From an uncultured Gemmatimonadota bacterium (GTDB lineage Bacteria; Gemmatimonadota; Gemmatimonadetes; Gemmatimonadales; Gemmatimonadaceae): 64,000 bases of DNA. Both the position numbers and the translations under genes were made by a program. The stretch is taken from positions 8,010-72,009 of the forward strand of contig CADEDA010000010.1 in the NCBI GenBank assembly GCA_902825965.1, read 5' to 3'. Every line of letters begins with the position of its first letter. The stretch's first letter is position 1. A model generated the notes under the pieces. That model saw nothing but the letters and a program-made list of their open reading frames with translations. It had not been told where the DNA came from and ran no database searches. Shown piece after piece: positions 16,581 through 27,109 of this stretch.

Positions 16581-16581
<1 letters not shown>
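16144..16581 (-). CDS. Exported lipoprotein, Ig-like/YtkA-like
   Basis: The ATG at 16581 gives 145 aa with a lipoprotein signal (LLALLLMPLVVAATSC) and a short beta-sandwich: FDFRITADVMPPRAIERITYTIVV and VGTYRATLTFVTAGEWAMGIQF. The GTYRATLTFxxAGEW block is like YtkA/FixH-type periplasmic domains that bind copper or other small ligands, but no Cu-binding Met/His cluster is visible. It overlaps the inositol-phosphate synthase stop by one base. Confidence 0.72.
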
Positions 16582-17888
<1,307 letters not shown>

Positions 17889-17906
17889 TGCGGGAGAAGT
17901 CTCCGG

Positions 17907-18539
17907 TCAGGCCACAGAGCGCGCGTCGGCAGTCACGCGCGCGACATGGCGGATTCGTTGAACAAACGTGATGCGGGCCGTGGCAGCCAGTACGGTGATG
18001 ACGGTCGCCAGGATCCAGCCGTCGAGCGCGAGCCCGAGGAACGCCTGCGGCGAGGCGAGCAGTGCGATGCGTTCCGGGCGCTCCATCATGCCGACGCCCT
18101 TCATCTCGACGCCCAACCCCTCCGCCCGCGCCCGGGTGTACGAGGTGAGCATGGTCGCCAGCAGCGCGACGATGCTCACCACCACCATCGGTCCCGAATG
18201 GTGCGAGGGGTGAGTCGCGTAGAAGTATGTCAGGCCGCCGAAGAGCGCGCCGTCCGCGACGCGGTCGAGCGTCGAGTCGTAGAACGCGCCGAACACCGTC
18301 GACTTGCCGGTCCGTCTCGCGACGGTGCCGTCCACCACATCGAAGAAGGCGGTCAGGCCCAGTGTCCAGCCGGCGATGGAGATGTGGCCGTAGGCGAAGA
18401 TCAGCCCAGCGGCGCACGTGCACAGGGTCCCCGCCGTCGTGATGACGTTCGGGGACACGCGGTGCCGCACGAACCACTCCACAATGGGCTCGATCAGGGC
18501 GAGGTAGCCCACCTTGATCCAGCCCCAAAGCTTCACCAT
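17907..18539 (-). CDS. CDP-alcohol phosphatidyltransferase, probable phosphatidylinositol(-phosphate) synthase
   Basis: A 210-aa integral membrane enzyme with the complete family motif D67-x2-D70-G71-x2-A74-R75-x8-G84-x3-D88-x3-D92, whose four Asp bind two metals. Several hydrophobic helices follow. It transfers a phosphatidyl group from CDP-diacylglycerol to an alcohol. Because inositol-1-phosphate synthase is next in the operon, the acceptor is most likely inositol 1-phosphate, as in actinobacterial PIP synthase. Glycerol phosphate is the main alternative. It is first in the long minus-strand gene run. Confidence 0.88.
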   Translation of the reverse strand: MVKLWGWIKVGYLALIEPIVEWFVRHRVSPNVITTAGTLCTCAAGLIFAYGHISIAGWTLGLTAFFDVVDGTVARRTGKSTVFGAFYDSTLDRVADGALFGGLTYFYATHPSHHSGPMVVVSIVALLATMLTSYTRARAEGLGVEMKGVGMMERPERIALLASPQAFLGLALDGWILATVITVLAATARITFVQRIRHVARVTADARSVA

Positions 18540-18677: not shown

Positions 18678-19994
18678 TCAATAGAGCAGGTATGGCCTGA
18701 TCCGGCGCTGGAACGCGACGATCGACGGCTGGATGCGATCGATCACCTCGTCGGGGTCCTCGCCCCGCAGCAGCGCCTCGCGCAGCGCGGGGATCCCGAA
18801 CCGATCGTCGTACGTCCGCGCATTCAGCTTCATCGAGTCCGGGTGCTCGCGGCCCAGCGCCCAGAGGATCGCCGCCCCCAGCCGGCCGACCTGGACGCGG
18901 TCGCGGTCCTCGACGACGATGCGCACCATGGGGATCGCCTTCCCCGCGAACTTGCCGTCACCCGGCTTGTCGGGCGTCACGCGCACCGCATCGAACCGCA
19001 CCCCCGAGAGCCCGTACTCCTCCAGGCGCTTGGCGACCTTGCCGGCGTCCATCCACGGGGCCCCGAACTGCTGGAACGGGTTCGGCGTGCCCCGCCCCAC
19101 GGAGAGGTTGGAGCCTTCGAAGGCCACGAGCGCCGGATACGTCAGCGCGCTCGTCAGCGAGGTCATCGAGGGCGACGGCACCACCCAGGCGAGCCCGGTC
19201 TCGTCCCACCACATTGCGCGCCGGTACCCGCCCATCTGCACCACCGTCAGCTGCACCGGGATCCGCAGTTCGCCGGCGAACCAGCGCGCCATCTCCCCGT
19301 TCGTCATACCGTGCCTGAGCGGCGCGGGGTATAATGCGTAGGCCTTCCCGCGGCGCGACGGCGTCGGGTCCTCGGGATTGGCCAGCGTCGAATCGAGCAG
19401 CGGCCCCTCGGACCGCCCACCCAGCGGATTCGGTCGGTCGAGCACGATGAACGGGATGTTGTTGCGCGCCGCGGCGCGCATCGCGTACACCATCAACCCG
19501 ACGTACGTCCAGGTGCGTGTGCCGATATCCGCCAGGTCGAACACCAGTCCATCGAGATCCTTGAGCAACGAGTCCGGCGGCGGGATGGTCCCGTTGCGGT
19601 ACAGGGAGTGCACCATGAGCCCGGTCCGCGGGTCCACCATGTCCGGCAGGTTCTCGGTATCCTCGGTGCCGCGGATGCCGTGCTCGGGCGAGAACAGCCG
19701 CACCACGGTCACATTGTTGCGCTTCACCCGCGGGTCCTGCGTGAGCCGATCGACGACGGACACCCCCTCGACGTCGACGCCGGTGTGGTTGGTGATGACG
19801 CCGATCCGCCGCCCGGCGAGCACCTGCAGCGAGTCCTCGAGCAGCACGGTCATGCCCACGCGGAACGCCGGCCGCGACGGTGCGCCGCGCGCCGCCGGCG
19901 CCTGCTGCGCCTCGGGTGCCTTCGCGCAGGCGGCACTCGTCCACCCCACGAGCACGAGCGCCAGCATCACCGGCCAGGGTGCCCCTCGTCCCAC
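18678..19994 (-). CDS. namZ: Exo-beta-N-acetylmuramidase NamZ-like (DUF1343) lipoprotein
   Basis: A DUF1343 protein of about 430 aa. Conserved blocks are GVITNHTGVD, LFSPEHGIRG, VFDLADIGTRTWTY, DRPNPLGGRSEGPLLD and WWDETGLAWVVPSPSM. Family members release terminal MurNAc from peptidoglycan fragments. A signal ends at lipobox SAAC. I chose GTG at 19994, so the n-region has Arg and GGGA lies upstream; ATG at 19967 is the alternative. It is divergent from the NagZ-type gene across about 25-50 bp. The B. subtilis orthologue is clustered with nagZ and amiE, supporting a salvage role. Confidence 0.87.
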   Translation of the reverse strand: MGRGAPWPVMLALVLVGWTSAACAKAPEAQQAPAARGAPSRPAFRVGMTVLLEDSLQVLAGRRIGVITNHTGVDVEGVSVVDRLTQDPRVKRNNVTVVRLFSPEHGIRGTEDTENLPDMVDPRTGLMVHSLYRNGTIPPPDSLLKDLDGLVFDLADIGTRTWTYVGLMVYAMRAAARNNIPFIVLDRPNPLGGRSEGPLLDSTLANPEDPTPSRRGKAYALYPAPLRHGMTNGEMARWFAGELRIPVQLTVVQMGGYRRAMWWDETGLAWVVPSPSMTSLTSALTYPALVAFEGSNLSVGRGTPNPFQQFGAPWMDAGKVAKRLEEYGLSGVRFDAVRVTPDKPGDGKFAGKAIPMVRIVVEDRDRVQVGRLGAAILWALGREHPDSMKLNARTYDDRFGIPALREALLRGEDPDEVIDRIQPSIVAFQRRIRPYLLY

Positions 19995-20018
19995 CCGTCC
20001 CACGCCCACTTCGCGCTG

Positions 20019-22997
20019 ATGTCGCACTCGAACGTCCTCCGCATGGCCGGCCTCGCCGGCGTGATCACCACCCTGGGATGCGCCACCGCGCTCCCCACCC
20101 GCGCCCCGACGCCCGAACCCGGTGCCGGTCACGGCCTGCCGGCCGAGGTCTCCCTCACCGGTCCGCTGCCCGCGTCGGCTACGGCGTGGATCGACCGGAC
20201 GCTGGCCGGGCTCACGCTCCGCGACCGCGTGGCCCAGATGCACATGTTCTGGCTGCTCGGGGATTATACCAGCACCACGGACTCCACGTTCGCGATGGCC
20301 GTCGAACGCGTGGAACTCGACAAGGTCGGCGGCGTGATCATGTCGCTCGGCACCCCGATCGAGGTCGCCGCCAAGGTGAACGCCCTGCAGGCCCGCGCCC
20401 GCATCCCGCTGCTCGTCGGCTCGGACGTGGAGCCGGGACTCGGTCGCCTGGAGGGCGGCACCTTCAACCCGGGCCTGCTCCGCGGCGGTGACGCGACCGT
20501 GCTGCCGAGCAATATGGCGATCGGGGCGACGGGCAGCGACGCGATGGCGCGCGAGGCCGGCCGGATCACGGGACGCGAGTCCCGCGCGATCGGCATCCAC
20601 ATCGGATTCGCCCCGTCCGTCGACGTGAACAACAACCCGGCCAATCCCGTGATCAACGTGCGCTCGTTCGGCGCCGAGGCGAACGCCGTCTCGCGCCTGG
20701 GCGCAGCGTTCATCGAGGGCATGCAGGCCGAGGGCGTGGCGGCGACGATGAAGCACTTCCCCGGCCATGGCGACACCGACACCGACTCCCACCTGGCCAT
20801 GCCCATCGTCTCGGCGTCCCGTGCGCGGCTCGACACCCTCGAACTCAAGCCCTTCCGGGCGGCGGTGGCCGCCGGCGTGGCCGCGGTGATGAGCGCCCAC
20901 GTCGCGCTCCCCGCGGTGGTCGGCGACTCCACACCGGCCACGCTGGTCGCGTCCGTGCTCTCGGGACTGCTGCGGGACTCGCTGCAGTTCCAGGGCGTGA
21001 CGTTCACCGATGCCATGGACATGCGCGGGATCGGGGCGGGGTACACCACCGAGGTGAGTTCCATCGCGGCCGTGAAGGCCGGCGTGGACGTGCTGCTCAT
21101 GCCCGCCGACATCCCGGCGTCGATCGCCGCGGTGACCGCGGCCGTCGAGCGCGGCGAGATCAGCGAGGAACGCATCAACGCCTCGGTGCGCCGCCTCCTC
21201 GAGCTCAAGGTCCGCACCGGCGCGATCCAGCGCCCGATCGTCTCGCTCGATTCGCTGCGTGAGATCGTCGGGTCGGCGGCGCACCGGCGTGCCGCGGACC
21301 GGATCGCGGAGCACGCCATCACGCTGCTGCGCGACGATGACCGGCAGCTGCCGCTCTCCACCGGCGCGGGTGCCCCCCGCACCGCGATCATCACGTTCTC
21401 GGGGGAGACCGACGTCCAGGGTGGGCGGGTGTTCGCGAACGAACTGCGCAGCCTGCTGCCACAGAGTCGCGTGCTGCGCATCGGCCCCGGCACGCCGCGC
21501 GCGCGGCTCGACTCACTGCTCCGGCCCGGTGAGCGTGTGGTGCTCGCCACCTTCGTGCGCACCATCGAGGGCGAAGGGCGGTTCTCGGTCGGCGAACACG
21601 TGGCGCGCTGGGTGGACTCGATCGCGATGGAGCGGCGCACCACCGTGGTCGCCTTCTCCAATCCGTACGTGATCCGCGAGTTCGCCTGGGTGGGTTCGTA
21701 CGTGGCCACCTTCGGTCGCGGTGACGCGATGGAGCGGGCGGCCGCTCGCGCACTCGCCGGACGCATCCCGTTCCGCGGGCGGTCGCCGATCGCACTGCCC
21801 GGCTTCTTCGACGTGGGTGACGGGCAGGGCGCCGATCGGCCGGCCGATGGGCGGGCCGATGCGGCGGCCGCTGCGTCGGCCACGACACCGGCAACGACAC
21901 CGGCAACGACACCGGCACTCGCCGACACGCTGCAGGCGCTGCTGGACCGCGCCGTGCGTGACTCCGTCTTCCCGGGCGCGATCGCCGTGATCGGGAGCCG
22001 CGCCGGGATCGTCACGCGGATCACGGCGGGGCGGATCGATTGGGCGGCCGACGCCCCTGCCCCGGACCTGCAGACCATCTGGGACGTCGCGTCGCTCACC
22101 AAGGTGCTCGGCATGACGACCGCGATGATGCAGCTCGTCGAGCAGGGTCGGGTGAAGCTCGATGCGCCGGTCCAGCGCTACCTGCCCGAGTGGACGGGCA
22201 AGGACAAGGACCGCGTCACCGTGCGGCACCTCCTCACGCACTCCTCCGGGCTCGCCCCGTTCATCCAGCTCTGGAAGTTCACCACCGACGCGGACTCCGC
22301 GCGCCGCATCGTGCTCAACGCGCCGCTCGACACGGCGCCGGGCACCAAGATGGTCTACTCCGACCTCGGGGCCATCCTGCTCGGCATGATCGTCGAACGC
22401 GTCAGCGGCGAGTCGCTGGACCAGTACGTCACGCGGCACATCTTCACGCCGCTGGGCATGCAGGACACTCGGTATCGCCCGGGGGCGGACGTGCTCGCAC
22501 GTGTGGCACCGACCGAACGCGACCCGTGGCGCGGTCGTCACCTGCGGGGCGAGGTCCACGACGAGAACGCGTTCCTGCTCGGTGGCGTGTCGGCACACGC
22601 GGGTCTGTTCAGCACGGCCGCGGACCTCAGCCGGTTCGCCCAGGCCATGCTGGGTGGCGGCGCGCTCGGCGGCGTGCGCATCGTGCGCAGCGAGACCGTG
22701 CGCGACTTCACGCGCGTGCAGAATGCGCTGCTCTCGCACCGGGCCCTCGGCTGGGAAACGCCGAATGGCAGCAACTCGGCGGGACGGGTACTGCGGCGGC
22801 CGGCCTTCGGCCACACCGGATTCACGGGCACGAGCATCTGGATCGACCCCGCCAATGACCTGTTCATCATCCTGCTCAGCAACCGCGTGAACCCCTCACG
22901 CGAGAACTCGCGCATCGGTCCGGTCCGCACGACCCTCGCGGACCTCGCCGCCACGCAGGCGATGCAGGGCCGTAGCGCCGTCCGCGGAACGCCCTGA
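20019..22997 (+). CDS. NagZ-type glycoside hydrolase family 3 fused to a beta-lactamase-fold serine hydrolase, lipoprotein
   Basis: A 992-aa two-enzyme fusion. The start at 20019 gives a lipoprotein signal (lipobox TLGC). Residues 60-380 are a GH3 N-acetylglucosaminidase with KHFPGHGDTDTDSH (about 245-258), bearing the NagZ Asp/His loop, and the nucleophile Asp331 in TFTDAMDM. A GH3 C-terminal domain follows. A repeat-rich TTPA linker (about 622-633) leads to a class-C-like serine hydrolase with S692-x-x-K695 (SLTK), Y780-S-D and H932-T-G. In B. subtilis the corresponding NagZ and AmiE (a MurNAc-L-Ala amidase of this fold) are separate genes. Amidase is likely; esterase is possible. Confidence 0.9.
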   Translation: MSHSNVLRMAGLAGVITTLGCATALPTRAPTPEPGAGHGLPAEVSLTGPLPASATAWIDRTLAGLTLRDRVAQMHMFWLLGDYTSTTDSTFAMAVERVELDKVGGVIMSLGTPIEVAAKVNALQARARIPLLVGSDVEPGLGRLEGGTFNPGLLRGGDATVLPSNMAIGATGSDAMAREAGRITGRESRAIGIHIGFAPSVDVNNNPANPVINVRSFGAEANAVSRLGAAFIEGMQAEGVAATMKHFPGHGDTDTDSHLAMPIVSASRARLDTLELKPFRAAVAAGVAAVMSAHVALPAVVGDSTPATLVASVLSGLLRDSLQFQGVTFTDAMDMRGIGAGYTTEVSSIAAVKAGVDVLLMPADIPASIAAVTAAVERGEISEERINASVRRLLELKVRTGAIQRPIVSLDSLREIVGSAAHRRAADRIAEHAITLLRDDDRQLPLSTGAGAPRTAIITFSGETDVQGGRVFANELRSLLPQSRVLRIGPGTPRARLDSLLRPGERVVLATFVRTIEGEGRFSVGEHVARWVDSIAMERRTTVVAFSNPYVIREFAWVGSYVATFGRGDAMERAAARALAGRIPFRGRSPIALPGFFDVGDGQGADRPADGRADAAAAASATTPATTPATTPALADTLQALLDRAVRDSVFPGAIAVIGSRAGIVTRITAGRIDWAADAPAPDLQTIWDVASLTKVLGMTTAMMQLVEQGRVKLDAPVQRYLPEWTGKDKDRVTVRHLLTHSSGLAPFIQLWKFTTDADSARRIVLNAPLDTAPGTKMVYSDLGAILLGMIVERVSGESLDQYVTRHIFTPLGMQDTRYRPGADVLARVAPTERDPWRGRHLRGEVHDENAFLLGGVSAHAGLFSTAADLSRFAQAMLGGGALGGVRIVRSETVRDFTRVQNALLSHRALGWETPNGSNSAGRVLRRPAFGHTGFTGTSIWIDPANDLFIILLSNRVNPSRENSRIGPVRTTLADLAATQAMQGRSAVRGTP
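21882..21917 (+). repeat. Three perfect 12-bp tandem repeats in the interdomain linker
   Basis: The unit ACGACACCGGCA occurs three times in a row, encoding the TTPATTPATTPA linker between the GH3 and serine-hydrolase domains. Being a multiple of 3, copy changes keep the frame and only alter linker length. Confidence 0.9.
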
Positions 22998-23000
22998 CCG

Positions 23001-24113
23001 GTGCACACGTCGCCGGCGGGTCATGTCCGGCCGCTTACGTCCCTCCGGTTCATCGCGGCGATCTGGGTGCTGCTGCACCACGCCCTGCCGCGGGAGCGCG
23101 CCGGCCGCGTCGGTGCCGCGATCGGGGAGAGTGGCTGGCTGGGCGTCTCGCTGTTCTTCGTGCTCTCGGGGTTCCTGCTCACGCTGCGGTACGCACCCAC
23201 CGGAACGCTCCGGGGGAGCACCCGGCGCTTCTGGCTCGAGCGCGTCGCTCGCCTGGGGCCGACGTACCTCCTCGCCCTCGCGTTCGCCCTGCCGCTGTTC
23301 CTGCGTGACGCCCGCGTGCAGGACTGGGGCGCGACCCTGACGGCCGGGATGGCCGCGGCGGCCCTGACGTTGCAGCAGGCCTGGCGTCCCGAGACCGCCT
23401 GCGCCTGGAACTGCCCAGCCTGGTCGCTCTCCGTCGAGACCTGGTTCTACCTGCTGTTCCCGGTCGGTATCGCGCTGGGTGGCCGATGGTTGATGGCCTC
23501 GCGTGCCCGGGGCGCCCTCCTGCTCGCCAGCGCGTTGGGCGCGGCACTGGTCATCTTCCCTGCGCTCGAGGACGCGTCGGCGGGCTGGCTCCTGCCGATG
23601 TACTCGCTCTCGCCGCTGAGCCGCTGGCCCGAGTTCCTGGCCGGTGTGGGACTCGCCGGCATGACCTTGGCGTGGCGGCCCGCGCGCGCCGCGCCGGCCT
23701 GGGCGCTCACGGGCATGGGCGTGCTCTGGGTGACCTCCGCCGTGGCACAGCGTGCGGCGCTCGAGCGCTTGGGCGGGCACCTGCTGCCACTGGCCCTGCC
23801 GGGCTTCGTCCTCGTGCTCCTCGGCGCCTGGGGGTTGCGCGCGCACGGTGCCGGGCTGCTCGGCGCGCCGGCGCTGGTGCGCCTGGGGGACGCGAGCTAC
23901 GCCCTCTACCTGCTCCACGCCCCGCTGCATTCCTACTTCCTCGCGGCGGCCAACCGCACAGTCGGACGGGGCTTCGACACGAGTTGGGCGCTGTTCGCCG
24001 TGTACCTCCCGCTGGCGATCGGACTCTCCCTCCTGGTGTACCAGTGGGTGGAGGTCCCGGCACGGGCAGCCCTGCGCCGCCGGTTCGGGCTCGACACCGC
24101 TCGCAGTCCCTGA
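23001..24113 (+). CDS. Acyltransferase family 3 membrane protein
   Basis: A 370-aa multi-pass protein of the OafA/YrhL family. The N-terminal motif RPLTSLRFIAAIWVLLHHA contains the conserved R and HH-type pair, followed by FFVLSGFLLTLRY and RRFWLERVARLGPTY (the R-x10-H-region block). It transfers acyl groups to carbohydrates across the inner membrane. The GTG start is 3 nt after the preceding stop, so it is coupled to the GH3/serine-hydrolase gene. O-acetylation of peptidoglycan or LPS sugars is plausible; the acceptor is not visible. Confidence 0.86.
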   Translation: MHTSPAGHVRPLTSLRFIAAIWVLLHHALPRERAGRVGAAIGESGWLGVSLFFVLSGFLLTLRYAPTGTLRGSTRRFWLERVARLGPTYLLALAFALPLFLRDARVQDWGATLTAGMAAAALTLQQAWRPETACAWNCPAWSLSVETWFYLLFPVGIALGGRWLMASRARGALLLASALGAALVIFPALEDASAGWLLPMYSLSPLSRWPEFLAGVGLAGMTLAWRPARAAPAWALTGMGVLWVTSAVAQRAALERLGGHLLPLALPGFVLVLLGAWGLRAHGAGLLGAPALVRLGDASYALYLLHAPLHSYFLAAANRTVGRGFDTSWALFAVYLPLAIGLSLLVYQWVEVPARAALRRRFGLDTARSP

Positions 24114-24218: not shown

Positions 24219-24575
24219 ATGAGCACGATGAACGCCCCTGAGGTCGCGGTCACCATCACCTCGGCCGCCGCAGTCGAAGTGCAGAAGTTCATGGTCGCGG
24301 AGAACGTGACGCCCGAAGTCGGCGGGCTCCGTGTCTCGGTGCAGCCCGGCGGATGCTCGGGCTTCAAGTACAGCCTCCTCATCGAGGACAAGGCGGCCGA
24401 GGACGATACGATCCTCGCGCAGAACGGCTTCAACGTCTTCGTCGATCCGTTCTCGATGCAGTACCTCAACGGCGTCATCATCGACTATGTGACGTCGATG
24501 CAGGGCTCCGGCTTCACCTTCAAGAACCCGAACGCCACGGGCGGATGCGGGTGCGGCAGCAGCTTCTCCGCCTGA
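24219..24575 (+). CDS. erpA: A-type iron-sulfur cluster carrier (ErpA/IscA family)
   Basis: A 118-aa HesB/IscA protein with the three conserved Cys: C46 in QPGGCSGFKY and C110/C112 in the GGCGCGSSF tail. It accepts and transfers [Fe-S] clusters to apo-enzymes. A GGAGGG ribosome-binding site precedes the ATG, and the gene has its own promoter and a terminator, so it is monocistronic although it sits inside a peptidoglycan-salvage neighbourhood. ErpA versus IscA or SufA cannot be resolved from the sequence. Confidence 0.9.
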   Translation: MSTMNAPEVAVTITSAAAVEVQKFMVAENVTPEVGGLRVSVQPGGCSGFKYSLLIEDKAAEDDTILAQNGFNVFVDPFSMQYLNGVIIDYVTSMQGSGFTFKNPNATGGCGCGSSFSA

Positions 24576-24649: not shown

Positions 24650-26167
24650 ATGACCGCCGCGTTCACCGCCCTCGACTGGGCGATCCTGCTGCTCTATCTC
24701 ATCGGCACCACGGCGCTCGGCGTCTGGCTCGGCCGCGACCAGAAGGACGCGAAGGACTACTTCGTCGCCGGCGGCCGCATCCCGTGGTGGGCGGTGCTCT
24801 TCTCGATCGTCGCGACCGAGACCAGCGCCCTCACCTTCATCTCGATCCCCGGCCTCGCCTACCTCGGCGACTTCACGTTCCTCCAGGTCGCCCTCGGCTA
24901 CGTGATCGGCCGCTGCATCATCGCGTACACGTTGCTGCCCAAGTACGTCGAGGGGGAGCTGGTGACCGCGTACGCCCTGCTGGAGCGGCGCTTCGGCACC
25001 AGCACGCGGCGCTTCGCCTCGGTGACCTTCATGGTCACGCGGGCCTTCGGCGACTCGGTGCGCGTGTTCGCCACCGCGATCCCGATCGCGCTCATCCTCG
25101 GGCCCGTGCTGCCGGGCATGAACGTCACGCCCATCGCGATCCTGGCCCTCGGCGCGACGACGCTGCTCTACACCTACCACGGCGGCATGAAGGCGGTCGT
25201 CTGGACGGATGTCATCCAGACGTTCGTGTACCTCGGCGGCGGCATCGGGGCGTTGTACCTCATCGGGGCGGCGGTCGACGGCGGCTGGGGCGCGATCTTC
25301 GATCGCGCCGGCGAGGCGGGCAAGCTCAAGGTCCTCGACGCGTACGCGGGCATGGACCGGCCGCACACCATCTTCGCCGGCATCCTCGGCGGCACCTTCC
25401 TCTCCATGGCCTCCCACGGCGCCGACCAGATCATCGTGCAGCGCCTGCTCACGTCCGGGTCGCTCGCCGACGCCCGGCGTGCGCTCATCGGCAGCGGCTT
25501 CGCGGTGCTGCTCCAGTTCGCGCTCTTCCTGTTCATCGGGCTCGGCCTCTGGGCGTTCTACGACGCGCGCAGCTTCAGCGCGCCCGACCGCATCTTCCCG
25601 ACGTTCATCATCGAGGAGATGCCGCCGGGCATGACCGGTCTCGTGATCGCCGCGATCCTGGCGGCCGCCATGAGCACCATCTCCGGCGCCCTCAACTCGC
25701 TCTCGGCGGCGACCACGCACGACCTCTGGGTGCCGATGCGCGGCGGCAAGGCCTCGACCGAGGCGACCTTCAAGGCCTCGAAGGTCTTCACGCTGGTCTG
25801 GGCCGCCATCCTCATCGGCGGCGCCCTGCTCTACAAGGCGGAGGGCACTCCCGTGGTGGTGATCGCCCTGTCGATCGCCTCGTTCACGTACGGTGGCCTG
25901 CTCGGGGCGTTCTTCCTGGCGATGCTCTGGCCGCGCGCCATCCAGCGCGACGCGATCACCGGCATGGCCGTGGGCATCGGCACCATGTCCGTGATCGTGT
26001 TCGCCGGGCGCATCGCGGCGGCGCTGCCCGGGCTCGCCGGCGCCCTGTCGCCCGTGATCGGCATCGCGTGGCCGTGGTTCGTGCTCATCGGTACCACGAT
26101 CACCTTCGGTACGGGTATCTTGTCCTCACTCACCCATGCGGCGCCGAGCACGGCGCCGCGATCCTAA
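24650..26167 (+). CDS. Sodium:solute symporter (SSS family)
   Basis: A 505-aa inner-membrane transporter with about 13 hydrophobic segments. SSS features are FVAGGRIPWWAVLFSIVATETSALTFISIPG near the N-terminus and the helix-8 block LVIAAILAAAMSTISGALNSLSAATTHD, which includes the sodium-site Ser/Thr. The solute is not readable from sequence. The sugar kinase 18 bp downstream and the NamZ/NagZ genes upstream suggest an amino sugar such as MurNAc; SSS-type MurNAc transporters (MurT) are known in Tannerella. No Shine-Dalgarno motif is obvious. Confidence 0.87.
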   Translation: MTAAFTALDWAILLLYLIGTTALGVWLGRDQKDAKDYFVAGGRIPWWAVLFSIVATETSALTFISIPGLAYLGDFTFLQVALGYVIGRCIIAYTLLPKYVEGELVTAYALLERRFGTSTRRFASVTFMVTRAFGDSVRVFATAIPIALILGPVLPGMNVTPIAILALGATTLLYTYHGGMKAVVWTDVIQTFVYLGGGIGALYLIGAAVDGGWGAIFDRAGEAGKLKVLDAYAGMDRPHTIFAGILGGTFLSMASHGADQIIVQRLLTSGSLADARRALIGSGFAVLLQFALFLFIGLGLWAFYDARSFSAPDRIFPTFIIEEMPPGMTGLVIAAILAAAMSTISGALNSLSAATTHDLWVPMRGGKASTEATFKASKVFTLVWAAILIGGALLYKAEGTPVVVIALSIASFTYGGLLGAFFLAMLWPRAIQRDAITGMAVGIGTMSVIVFAGRIAAALPGLAGALSPVIGIAWPWFVLIGTTITFGTGILSSLTHAAPSTAPRS

Positions 26168-26185: not shown

Positions 26186-27109
26186 ATGTCGCATCTGGTG
26201 GTGGGCGTCGATGGCGGTGGCAGCAAGACGCAAGTGATCGTGGCGGATGGGCGCGGCAAGGAACTCGCGACGCTCACCGGCAGCGGGAGTGCGGTCCGCC
26301 CCGGCGAGGCCCTGCACTCCGCCGAAGTGATCGGCGCGCTGGTGCGGGATGCCCTGGCGATGGCCGAGCAGGAGGACCGTCCGCGGATCCTCACCGTCGG
26401 CGTGGCCGGCGTGGGCCGCGAGAAGGAGCGCAAGAACCTGCTCCGCGCCCTCGAAGGCGAGGCGATCGCCGAGGAGATCCAGGTCGTGACCGACGCCGAG
26501 GTGGCGATGGAGGACGCGTTCGGGGATGGCCCGGGCATCCTCCTCATCTCCGGCACGGGTTCCGTGGCGTACGGCCGCGGACCGACCGGCACCATGCTGC
26601 GCTGCGGCGGTTGGGGCCCCAACTGCGGCGACGAGGGCAGTGGCGCCTGGATCGGCCGTCGCGCGCTGAGCGTGGTGACCGCGTCCCATGACGGCCGCGA
26701 ACCGGAGACGCGCCTGGTCGGCGCAGTGCTCACGGCGCTCGAGCTCGACGAGGTGGACGACCTGGTGGCGTGGTCGGCGACGGCCACGCCGAAGCAGCTC
26801 GCCGCGCTCGCCGTGCCGGTCCTCACGTTGGCCGCCGAGCGCGACCTTCGCGCCAACTCCATCTGCACGATCGCCGCGGAGGAGCTCGTGGGCCACGTAC
26901 GCACGCTCGCCCGGCAGCTGTTCGTGGACGAGCGCGCGGCGGTCCCCGTGGCGCTGGCCGGCGGCATGATGAAGCGCGGGTCCTTCCTGCGCCGCCTGGT
27001 GGAGCACCGGCTCAAGTCCGCCGTGCCCGGCGCGCACCTGCATGGCGAGGACGTGCTGCCGGCGCGCGGGGCGGTCAAGCTCGCGCGCCGGAGTCTCGCG
27101 ACGGTCTAG
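26186..27109 (+). CDS. BadF/BadG-family sugar kinase, probable MurNAc/GlcNAc kinase
   Basis: A 307-aa ASKHA-fold kinase. Phosphate-1 loop VGVDGGGSKTQVIVAD, the adenosine block ILLISGTGSVAYG, GWGPNCGDEGSGAWIGRRAL and the C-terminal VALAGGMMKRG match the N-acetylglucosamine/N-acetylmuramate kinase branch (human NAGK, clostridial MurK). It should phosphorylate an imported amino sugar at O6. The neighbours (symporter, NamZ, NagZ/AmiE fusion) favour MurNAc or GlcNAc. The stop shares CTAG with the convergent permease gene. Confidence 0.85.
   Translation: MSHLVVGVDGGGSKTQVIVADGRGKELATLTGSGSAVRPGEALHSAEVIGALVRDALAMAEQEDRPRILTVGVAGVGREKERKNLLRALEGEAIAEEIQVVTDAEVAMEDAFGDGPGILLISGTGSVAYGRGPTGTMLRCGGWGPNCGDEGSGAWIGRRALSVVTASHDGREPETRLVGAVLTALELDEVDDLVAWSATATPKQLAALAVPVLTLAAERDLRANSICTIAAEELVGHVRTLARQLFVDERAAVPVALAGGMMKRGSFLRRLVEHRLKSAVPGAHLHGEDVLPARGAVKLARRSLATV

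Follow-up and report, generated by a model that had tools for sequence, protein, structure and literature searches.

An amidase and a glucosaminidase are combined in one protein in staphylococcal Atl, as the two putative activities are in the protein described here; Atl differs in its folds and in its role, the separation of daughter cells. In Bacillus subtilis, the murQ-murR-murP-amiE-nagZ-ybbC cluster provides extracellular NagZ followed by AmiE as separate proteins acting in sequence (PMC5061867). RmNag3 from Rhodothermus marinus consists of a signal peptide, GH3 domains 1 and 2 and a C-terminal domain of the beta-lactamase type (PMC6987092). It is active on acetyl-chitooligosaccharides, and in the available sections of that account muropeptides are not among the reported substrates. 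Its authors drew a parallel to the Bacillus NagZ/AmiE set-up and tied the C-terminal domain to murein turnover by way of beta-lactamase induction; in the same sections the domain is neither named nor assayed as an amidase, and NamZ goes unmentioned. In Tannerella, free MurNAc is handled by the symporter-type transporter MurT, the kinase MurK and the etherase MurQ (PMC5790795), while the source of the MurNAc imported by MurT is described as unclear (PMC7670621).

We analysed a window of 64,000 nucleotides from a contig of an uncultured Gemmatimonadota bacterium, in which the original prediction had seen a NagZ-type GH3 and an AmiE-like enzyme joined in one 992-aa lipoprotein. The reading frame at 20019..22997 (+ strand) is indeed stop-free over 992 aa, with a third-codon-position GC of 0.88–0.95 in all five blocks of 200 codons, and both domains with their catalytic residues are present. 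An upstream extension of the frame to 19608 is possible. We favour the start at 20019, since a signal-like sequence, judged by eye, begins there (20019..20081); it carries the lipobox TLGC with LGC at residues 19–21 and Cys21 as the putative lipidation site. A lipobox pattern also occurs in all five same-genus relatives, in line with the predicted lipoprotein. With this signal, two GH3 domains and a PF00144 domain in one chain the protein matches the RmNag3 architecture. The comparison with RmNag3 rests on its published description; a fusion from Rhodothermaceae is 37% identical to the window protein.

The GH3 catalytic domain covers residues 66–395 (20214..21203, +; PF00933, E 1.5e-79, 268.2 bits against a cut-off of 27). 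It contains the motif KHFPGHGDTDTDSH at residue 245 and TDAMDM at residue 330, which provide K245, H246, the dyad D256/H258 and the nucleophile D331. K245, H246, D256 and H258 correspond at a constant offset to K216, H217, D227 and H229 of RmNag3 (PMC6987092). We aligned the window protein with 60 of 79 fused loci from named genomes (taken from the best 80 of at least 592 matches) and used this alignment for conservation as well as for folding. D256, H258 and D331 are invariant in all 61 rows. The best fold match of the GH3 half in the predicted model was B. subtilis NagZ (3bmx_A) over residues 49–609, with Z 54.0 and an rmsd of 2.4 for 533 aligned residues. This match adds to the original prediction a second GH3 domain of the B. 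subtilis NagZ type at about residues 400–600 (21216..21818, +), between the catalytic domain and the linker, for which a Pfam match of its own is absent in the window protein. Profile, catalytic residues and predicted two-domain fold thus all agree with a NagZ-type enzyme.

The linker lies at 21831..21917 (+), with pLDDT below 50 for residues 605–629 and the TTPA repeat at residues 622–633. Linkers were compared in 32 other fused sequences, and none contains this repeat; it is peculiar to the window protein, and we rejected a conserved role for it. Linker lengths were taken as distances between the matched parts, which for three loci (L072–L074) include part of a domain. With a pTM of 0.65, the relative orientation of the domains in the model is uncertain.

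The C-terminal half holds a class-C serine hydrolase domain at residues 640–962 (21936..22904, +; PF00144, E 1.1e-67) with the motifs SLTK at 692, YSD at 780 and HTG at 932. The corresponding residues S692, K695, Y780, H932 and G934 are retained in 60 of the 61 aligned rows, the sole departure being a MAG from the Acidobacteria. The Thr of HTG is variable (Thr in 36 of 61 rows). On this basis we rejected the possibility, named by the original prediction as a way to refute it, that one half lacks its catalytic residues. Compared with a panel of nine AmiE-like/PBP4B members, which did not include B. subtilis AmiE itself, the domain scored 151–215 bits, against 71 bits for E. coli AmpC, 76 bits for AmpH and at most 96 bits for the 21 further PF00144 proteins encoded in the same genome. 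Most panel members are adjacent or fused to murein-salvage genes: E. coli YfeW (PBP4B) is encoded in murR-murQ-murP-yfeW, relatives on two Deinococcus plasmids occur together with AnmK, NagZ and MurQ, and one from Thermomicrobium is found near NagA, AnmK, a beta-N-acetylhexosaminidase, a BadF protein and MurQ. The Priestia member is not beside such genes. In Burkholderia and Cupriavidus, AmiE-like domains are joined to NamZ. A class-C tree was built without the paralogue L101; of the other 20 paralogues from this genome, 10 lacked a profile match and were omitted. The tree has long branches and required two changes for the AmiE-like group, which formed a single clade in 34% of the bootstrap trees. 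Scores set the putatively AmiE-like domain clearly apart from AmpC, AmpH and the paralogues, and the tree does so less cleanly; amidase activity is predicted.

The PF00144 match and the predicted fold, which resembles EstG, Est-Y29 and other esterases of the same fold, would also suit a mere travelling companion of NagZ, either a family VIII esterase or a class-C beta-lactamase, and the RmNag3 authors' link to beta-lactamase induction points the same way. We give this reading very little credence. The domain reaches 59.2 bits with the class C beta-lactamase model (NF033085; cut-off 415), and it shares YSD and GHTG with YfeW, whereas AmpC has YAN and GATG. On motifs, panel scores and model score we rejected a true beta-lactamase.

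Somewhat less remote, though still improbable, is a DD-carboxypeptidase or endopeptidase of the PBP4B kind, which would trim stem peptides while the GH3 half acts as NagZ, so that MurNAc stays on the peptide. The best NCBIfam match of the domain is PBP4B (NF002968, 174.6 bits), and E. coli PBP4B appears in a list of DD-carboxypeptidases (PMC4916385). The score is far below the model's cut-off of 385, however, and relatives of the domain occur in MurNAc-salvage clusters; PBP4B itself belongs to a murQ operon, which fits an amidase at least equally well.

A sequencing error joining two genes had been named as a further way to refute the fusion. We searched 150 genomes of the phylum and fetched 40 hand-picked stretches. 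All five other same-genus genomes of this sample contain the fused form, as do 79 of the 80 loci from titled records; full-length matches are favoured in this set, which holds the top scorers among at least 592 matches. An assembly join was therefore rejected. In the Bacteroidota, single proteins of roughly 1000 aa likewise hold the two domains, for example in Parabacteroides distasonis (WP_121956276.1, where a Pfam run found both domains in one protein) and Bacteroides finegoldii (WP_237924375.1), at 29–30% identity to the window protein. Neither NamZ nor a symporter is annotated within 6 kb of these two; a ROK-family protein is encoded near the B. finegoldii fusion. Being widespread and of the same kind as RmNag3 (PMC6987092), the fusion is largely ordinary and the window protein alone one more member of a known architecture; novelty of the architecture is not supported.

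Tethering also carries less weight than predicted. Among the 40 fetched loci, NagZ and amidase-like genes were separate and side by side in four, each with its own signal-like start, and an amidase-like gene stood without NagZ in ten (10 of the 37 holding an AmiE-like domain). On unrooted trees the fused/split label changed at least 3–4 times, which makes tethering optional. The rows of these trees were the 30 best full-length matches and 20 of the 40 fetched stretches, a choice that biases the count of fused rows upward. The natural split versions may serve as controls for the effect of tethering.

Upstream of the fusion, and divergent to it, lies a gene for NamZ (18678..20009, − strand; PF07075 and PF20732) with a lipobox-like start at either GTG 20009 or ATG 19967. 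B. subtilis YbbC is a NamZ. Downstream follow a sodium:solute symporter (24650..26167, +; PF00474, TIGR00813), a candidate MurNAc importer with a MurT-like role, and a BadF-type sugar kinase (26186..27109, +; PF01869), a candidate MurNAc/GlcNAc kinase with a MurK-like role. Both assignments are family-level matches; the best PDB match of the kinase is 8zo3, 'N-acetylmuramic acid/N-acetylglucosamine kinase' (E 1.7e-30). An AmiE-like domain occurs in 37 of the 40 fetched phylum loci, and all 37 have the symporter within 4.5 kb downstream of it; the kinase is nearby in 32 and NamZ in 27. In each of the 20 loci that had been picked for carrying the fusion, NamZ is divergent to it. A contig from Calditrichaeota brings kinase, fusion, symporter and MurQ together. 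Around the best 80 of at least 592 named loci, mostly Bacteroidota and often truncated in their flanks where the contig ends, we found the symporter at 10, NamZ at 7, MurQ at 5, the kinase at 3 and AnmK at 1.

Elsewhere in the genome, MurQ and AnmK are adjacent on another contig. The gene set resembles MurT-MurK-MurQ of Tannerella in a symporter-superfamily transporter and a sugar kinase, both putatively specific for MurNAc, and in MurQ, with murQ apart from the other two. The fusion is the genome's sole GH3 protein with the NagZ dyad; two other GH3 proteins are without this motif. Nowhere in the genome was the cut-off of the NagA model reached. AmpG, not reported for R. marinus in the available text (PMC6987092), had no match in this genome either, which is given as 95% complete, and we rejected E. 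coli-type cytoplasmic recycling through AmpG. By homology, NagZ (YbbD), AmiE (YbbE) and YbbC of B. subtilis provide the same three activities near MurNAc uptake genes (PMC5061867), with a PTS protein for uptake there versus, we infer, symporter and kinase here.

We consider it likely that the fusion is an exported, probably lipid-anchored protein that dismantles muropeptides outside the cytoplasm and feeds a MurT/MurK/MurQ-like route. The GH3 half would work like NagZ, using its Asp-His dyad to take the terminal GlcNAc off a GlcNAc-MurNAc-peptide. In the MurNAc-peptide thus exposed, the C-terminal half would then hydrolyse the MurNAc-L-Ala bond via Ser692, in the manner of Bacillus AmiE, and NamZ would release terminal MurNAc from glycan ends. 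Free MurNAc would enter by the symporter, be phosphorylated by the BadF kinase and be converted to GlcNAc-6-P by MurQ. We infer each substrate, the order and location of the steps and any benefit of the join. Several points speak against this dismantling role: among the 37 phylum loci NamZ is absent at 10, the kinase at 5 and NagZ at 10; salvage genes are rare near the named loci; the AmiE-like group is no clean clade; kinase and symporter are placed by family; NagA stays below its cut-off; and YfeW, a close relative of the C-terminal half, is the listed DD-carboxypeptidase. Given the activity of RmNag3 on acetyl-chitooligosaccharides (PMC6987092), the fusion might instead be chiefly a chitin-oligosaccharide hydrolase, but its amidase-like half, together with NamZ, the kinase and the symporter nearby, argues for murein and makes this highly unlikely.

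The useful part of these data is the context of the fusion in the phylum rather than its architecture. The steady pairing of the AmiE-like domain with the symporter, and mostly with the kinase, offers a concrete, testable answer to where the MurNAc of MurT comes from. A bolder and rather doubtful extension is that the fusion, with both active sites on one anchor, and NamZ form an exo-acting unit that strips GlcNAc, peptide and MurNAc in turn from glycan ends outside the cytoplasm, supplying free MurNAc to symporter-type importers. As AmiE-like domains are joined to NagZ or NamZ depending on lineage, partner swapping would be a general route to such units.

Two further genes lie between fusion and symporter. 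An acyltransferase-3 family protein (23001..24113, +; PF01757) is encoded directly downstream of the fusion; it was matched in one of 40 other loci (L035) and probably stands outside the conserved set. It is followed by an ErpA/IscA-type Fe-S protein (24219..24575, +), assigned by profile matches and a frequent neighbour in the fetched loci.

Translation bore out an intact open reading frame at 20019-22997 (+) encoding 992 aa, in which we found all the GH3 and class-C serine-hydrolase motifs named in the original prediction. The N-terminus carries, as judged by eye, a signal-like segment and a lipobox (TLGC, Cys21). Pfam placed GH3 at residues 66-395 and the beta-lactamase family at 640-962, both far above cut-off. 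For AlphaFold2 we used an alignment of 61 fusions: the window protein plus 60 taken from the 79 fused proteins of named genomes. The model had a mean pLDDT of 87.8 and a pTM of 0.65, with an uncertain relative orientation of the domains and low-confidence stretches at 1-39, 147-150, 605-629 and 988-992. Residues 49-609 superposed on Bacillus subtilis NagZ (3bmx; Z 54.0, rmsd 2.4, 533 aligned residues), and residues 627-985 matched class-C serine hydrolases of the esterase/beta-lactamase fold with Z up to 39.8. In sequence, the GH3 half was closest among solved structures to a Paenibacillus GH3 N-acetylglucosaminidase, 6k5j, followed by 3sql and B. subtilis NagZ. The observation of NagZ and AmiE-like halves in one lipoprotein is true, and the functional guess attached to it, that one protein could cut two muropeptide bonds, is largely right.

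The active-site residues of both halves are highly conserved. K245, H246, D256 and H258 correspond at a constant offset of 29 to K216, H217, D227 and H229 of RmNag3, a Rhodothermus marinus protein of the same architecture (PMC6987092). The nucleophile D331 aligns with position 318 of B. subtilis NagZ, an Asn in the structures titled D318N. All five residues are invariant in the 61 aligned fusions, as are S692 and H932 of the C half; K695, Y780 and G934 are kept in 60, D782 in 59 and T933 in 36. The exception at the former three is an Acidobacteria MAG fusion (L127:2220-4646), in which the SxxK Lys, the Tyr and the HxG Gly all differ in the alignment. Its C half is possibly an inactive hydrolase domain, or else a misaligned row.

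The identity of the C half was investigated by BLAST against a panel of class-C-type proteins that included the PF00144 paralogues of its own genome. The highest score (215 bits) was obtained for a Thermomicrobium protein with NagA, AnmK, beta-N-acetylhexosaminidase, a BadF protein and MurQ as neighbours. It was followed by a NamZ-fused Burkholderia protein (196 bits), a Priestia protein annotated PBP4B, whose gene is without salvage neighbours (183 bits), Bacteroidota fusions (178 and 170 bits), a Halorussus protein (170 bits), two Deinococcus proteins (167 and 151 bits) and Escherichia coli YfeW from the murR-murQ-murP-yfeW region (162 bits). Both Deinococcus proteins are encoded beside NagZ, with AnmK; MurQ is adjacent in one locus and about 7 kb off in the other. 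AmpC and AmpH gave 71 and 76 bits, and of 21 other own-genome PF00144 proteins 10 matched at all, with at most 96 bits. YSD and GHTG are common to the C half and most of the nine high-scoring panel members, with departures in Parabacteroides and Halorussus (YSC) and in the Burkholderia protein (AHLG). The C half lies below the cut-offs of the PBP4B and class-C beta-lactamase profile models. In a class-C tree of 33 rows this high-scoring group fell nearly together; since support was weak and branches were long, we call the C half AmiE-like rather than AmiE.

The fusion architecture is known and common. The RmNag3 study described it in 2020 and pointed to relatives from Salinibacter and Rhodohalobacter; the authors likened it to the B. 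subtilis NagZ/AmiE set-up and, in the accessible part of the text, do not term the C domain an amidase (PMC6987092). No closer literature was found among the matches listed in openly licensed papers, which is no proof of absence. A scan of named genomes gave at least 592 matches; among the 80 that scored best, 79 were fused. These 80 come from Bacteroidetes groups, Rhodothermaceae/Rhodothermales, Gemmatimonadota, Calditrichaeota, Planctomycetota, Candidatus Kuenenia and Acidobacteria. Two fused proteins carry the NCBI name "GH3 domain-containing". The worth of the finding lies in the salvage cluster around the fusion.

In this cluster a divergent NamZ gene lies upstream of the fusion. The Pfam name of its family is exo-beta-N-acetylmuramidase NamZ, and we take ybbC of B. 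subtilis to be namZ. Downstream on the same strand follow an acyltransferase (23001-24113), an ErpA-type protein (24219-24575), a sodium symporter (best solved match 5nv9, a sodium:solute symporter) and a BadF kinase, whose closest solved relative is a MurNAc/GlcNAc kinase. With a fusion start at 20019, only 9 or 51 bases separate it from the start of namZ (19967-20019), so that the two promoters must overlap coding sequence or one another. An inositol-1-phosphate synthase and a phosphatidylinositol-phosphate-synthase-like gene (16581-18539) adjoin the cluster, as they do in many fetched loci of the same family.

We compared 40 stretches of 14-20 kb from 150 searched genomes of the phylum; 20 were picked as fusion loci, the other 20 because their halves lay apart or in tandem. 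The nearest titled loci point to Gemmatimonadota as this phylum, among them L112, from a Gemmatimonadaceae MAG (56% identical). An AmiE-like domain was found in 37 loci, all with the symporter at most 4.5 kb downstream on the same strand; the BadF kinase was present at 32 (one miss being a contig end) and NamZ at 27. NamZ was divergent in all 20 loci picked for the fusion. Symporter, kinase and NamZ were absent from all three fetched loci with NagZ alone, and 10 loci keep AmiE-like domain, symporter and kinase without NagZ. It is therefore the uptake gene, not NagZ, that constantly accompanies the amidase-like domain. Support from a second phylum is provided by a Calditrichaeota MAG (L114), in which one 13-kb contig holds BadF kinase, fusion, symporter and MurQ. 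Near the fusion in the 80 named loci we counted symporter 10, NamZ 7, MurQ 5, kinase 3 and AnmK 1 times, using the window's own proteins as queries and with many flanks ending at contig ends. Given this rarity, the link is strong in this phylum and may not extend to Bacteroidota.

B. subtilis NagZ and AmiE break down muropeptides sequentially outside the cell and are encoded in the cluster murQ-murR-murP-amiE-nagZ-ybbC (PMC5061867); according to a review, efficient MurNAc release by this NagZ requires AmiE (PMC6403190). In Tannerella, MurNAc enters through MurT of the symporter superfamily, is phosphorylated by MurK and is then converted by MurQ (PMC5790795, PMC10465942). The window cluster unites outside hydrolases of the B. 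subtilis type with a symporter, kinase and MurQ of the Tannerella type: the fusion and NamZ would act outside, the symporter and kinase would follow, and MurQ would be supplied from elsewhere in the genome. No AmpG was matched in the 4.07-Mb own assembly (stated completeness 95%). The situation is similar to the account that the RmNag3 authors give of R. marinus, for which they report no AmpG and for this reason place NagZ in the periplasm, as in the B. subtilis set-up (PMC6987092).

The same assembly holds one NamZ and one MurQ above cut-off, with AnmK directly after the latter; NagA had no match above the model cut-off. This murQ-anmK pair lies on another contig, C3 (L204:6049-9535), and after it comes a gene for a GH3 protein with no evident signal peptide. 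The His of the dyad is replaced in this protein (KHFPGLGRASVDPS), which may therefore not function as a NagZ. In the third GH3 protein of the genome the NagZ dyad motif is absent.

The 40 fetched loci comprised 23 fusions, four with side-by-side NagZ and AmiE-like genes (L055, L056, L057, L064), 10 with the AmiE-like gene alone and three with NagZ alone. Seven of the 14 separate AmiE-like genes showed a simple lipobox pattern; by eye, two others were lipoprotein-like and five had hydrophobic signal-like starts. The fused label required six changes on the AmiE-like tree (47 rows; four forced by well-supported branches) and four on the NagZ tree (50 rows; three forced). Because the trees carry no root and their rows were selected by match, we state no direction of fusion or fission. 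The linker between the matched parts spans 20 to 151 residues, and the TTPA linker occurred only in the window protein among 33 fused sequences. In L048-L050, L054 and L072-L074 an extra separate NagZ-like gene lies in tandem just upstream of the fusion.

Other combinations were found on plasmids. A single polypeptide of some 780-796 aa combines AmiE-like and NamZ parts in Burkholderia savannae (L106:5827-8217) and Cupriavidus metallidurans (L206:3866-6208). For the former, Pfam gave PF00144 at 54-379, NamZ_N at 446-645 and NamZ_C at 650-796, and four plasmid records, its own included, matched it in one piece over 91-100%. Upstream in both annotated records lie a polysaccharide deacetylase and a putative glycoside hydrolase. 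A plasmid of the haloarchaeon Halorussus vallis (L107) carries AnmK, a peptidoglycan-recognition-family protein, an AmiE-like hydrolase, NamZ and NagZ together. Archaea are not known to contain murein, and the set suggests that walls of bacteria are scavenged. Other Halorussus and Haladaptatus plasmids hold hydrolase-DUF1343 pairs as well.
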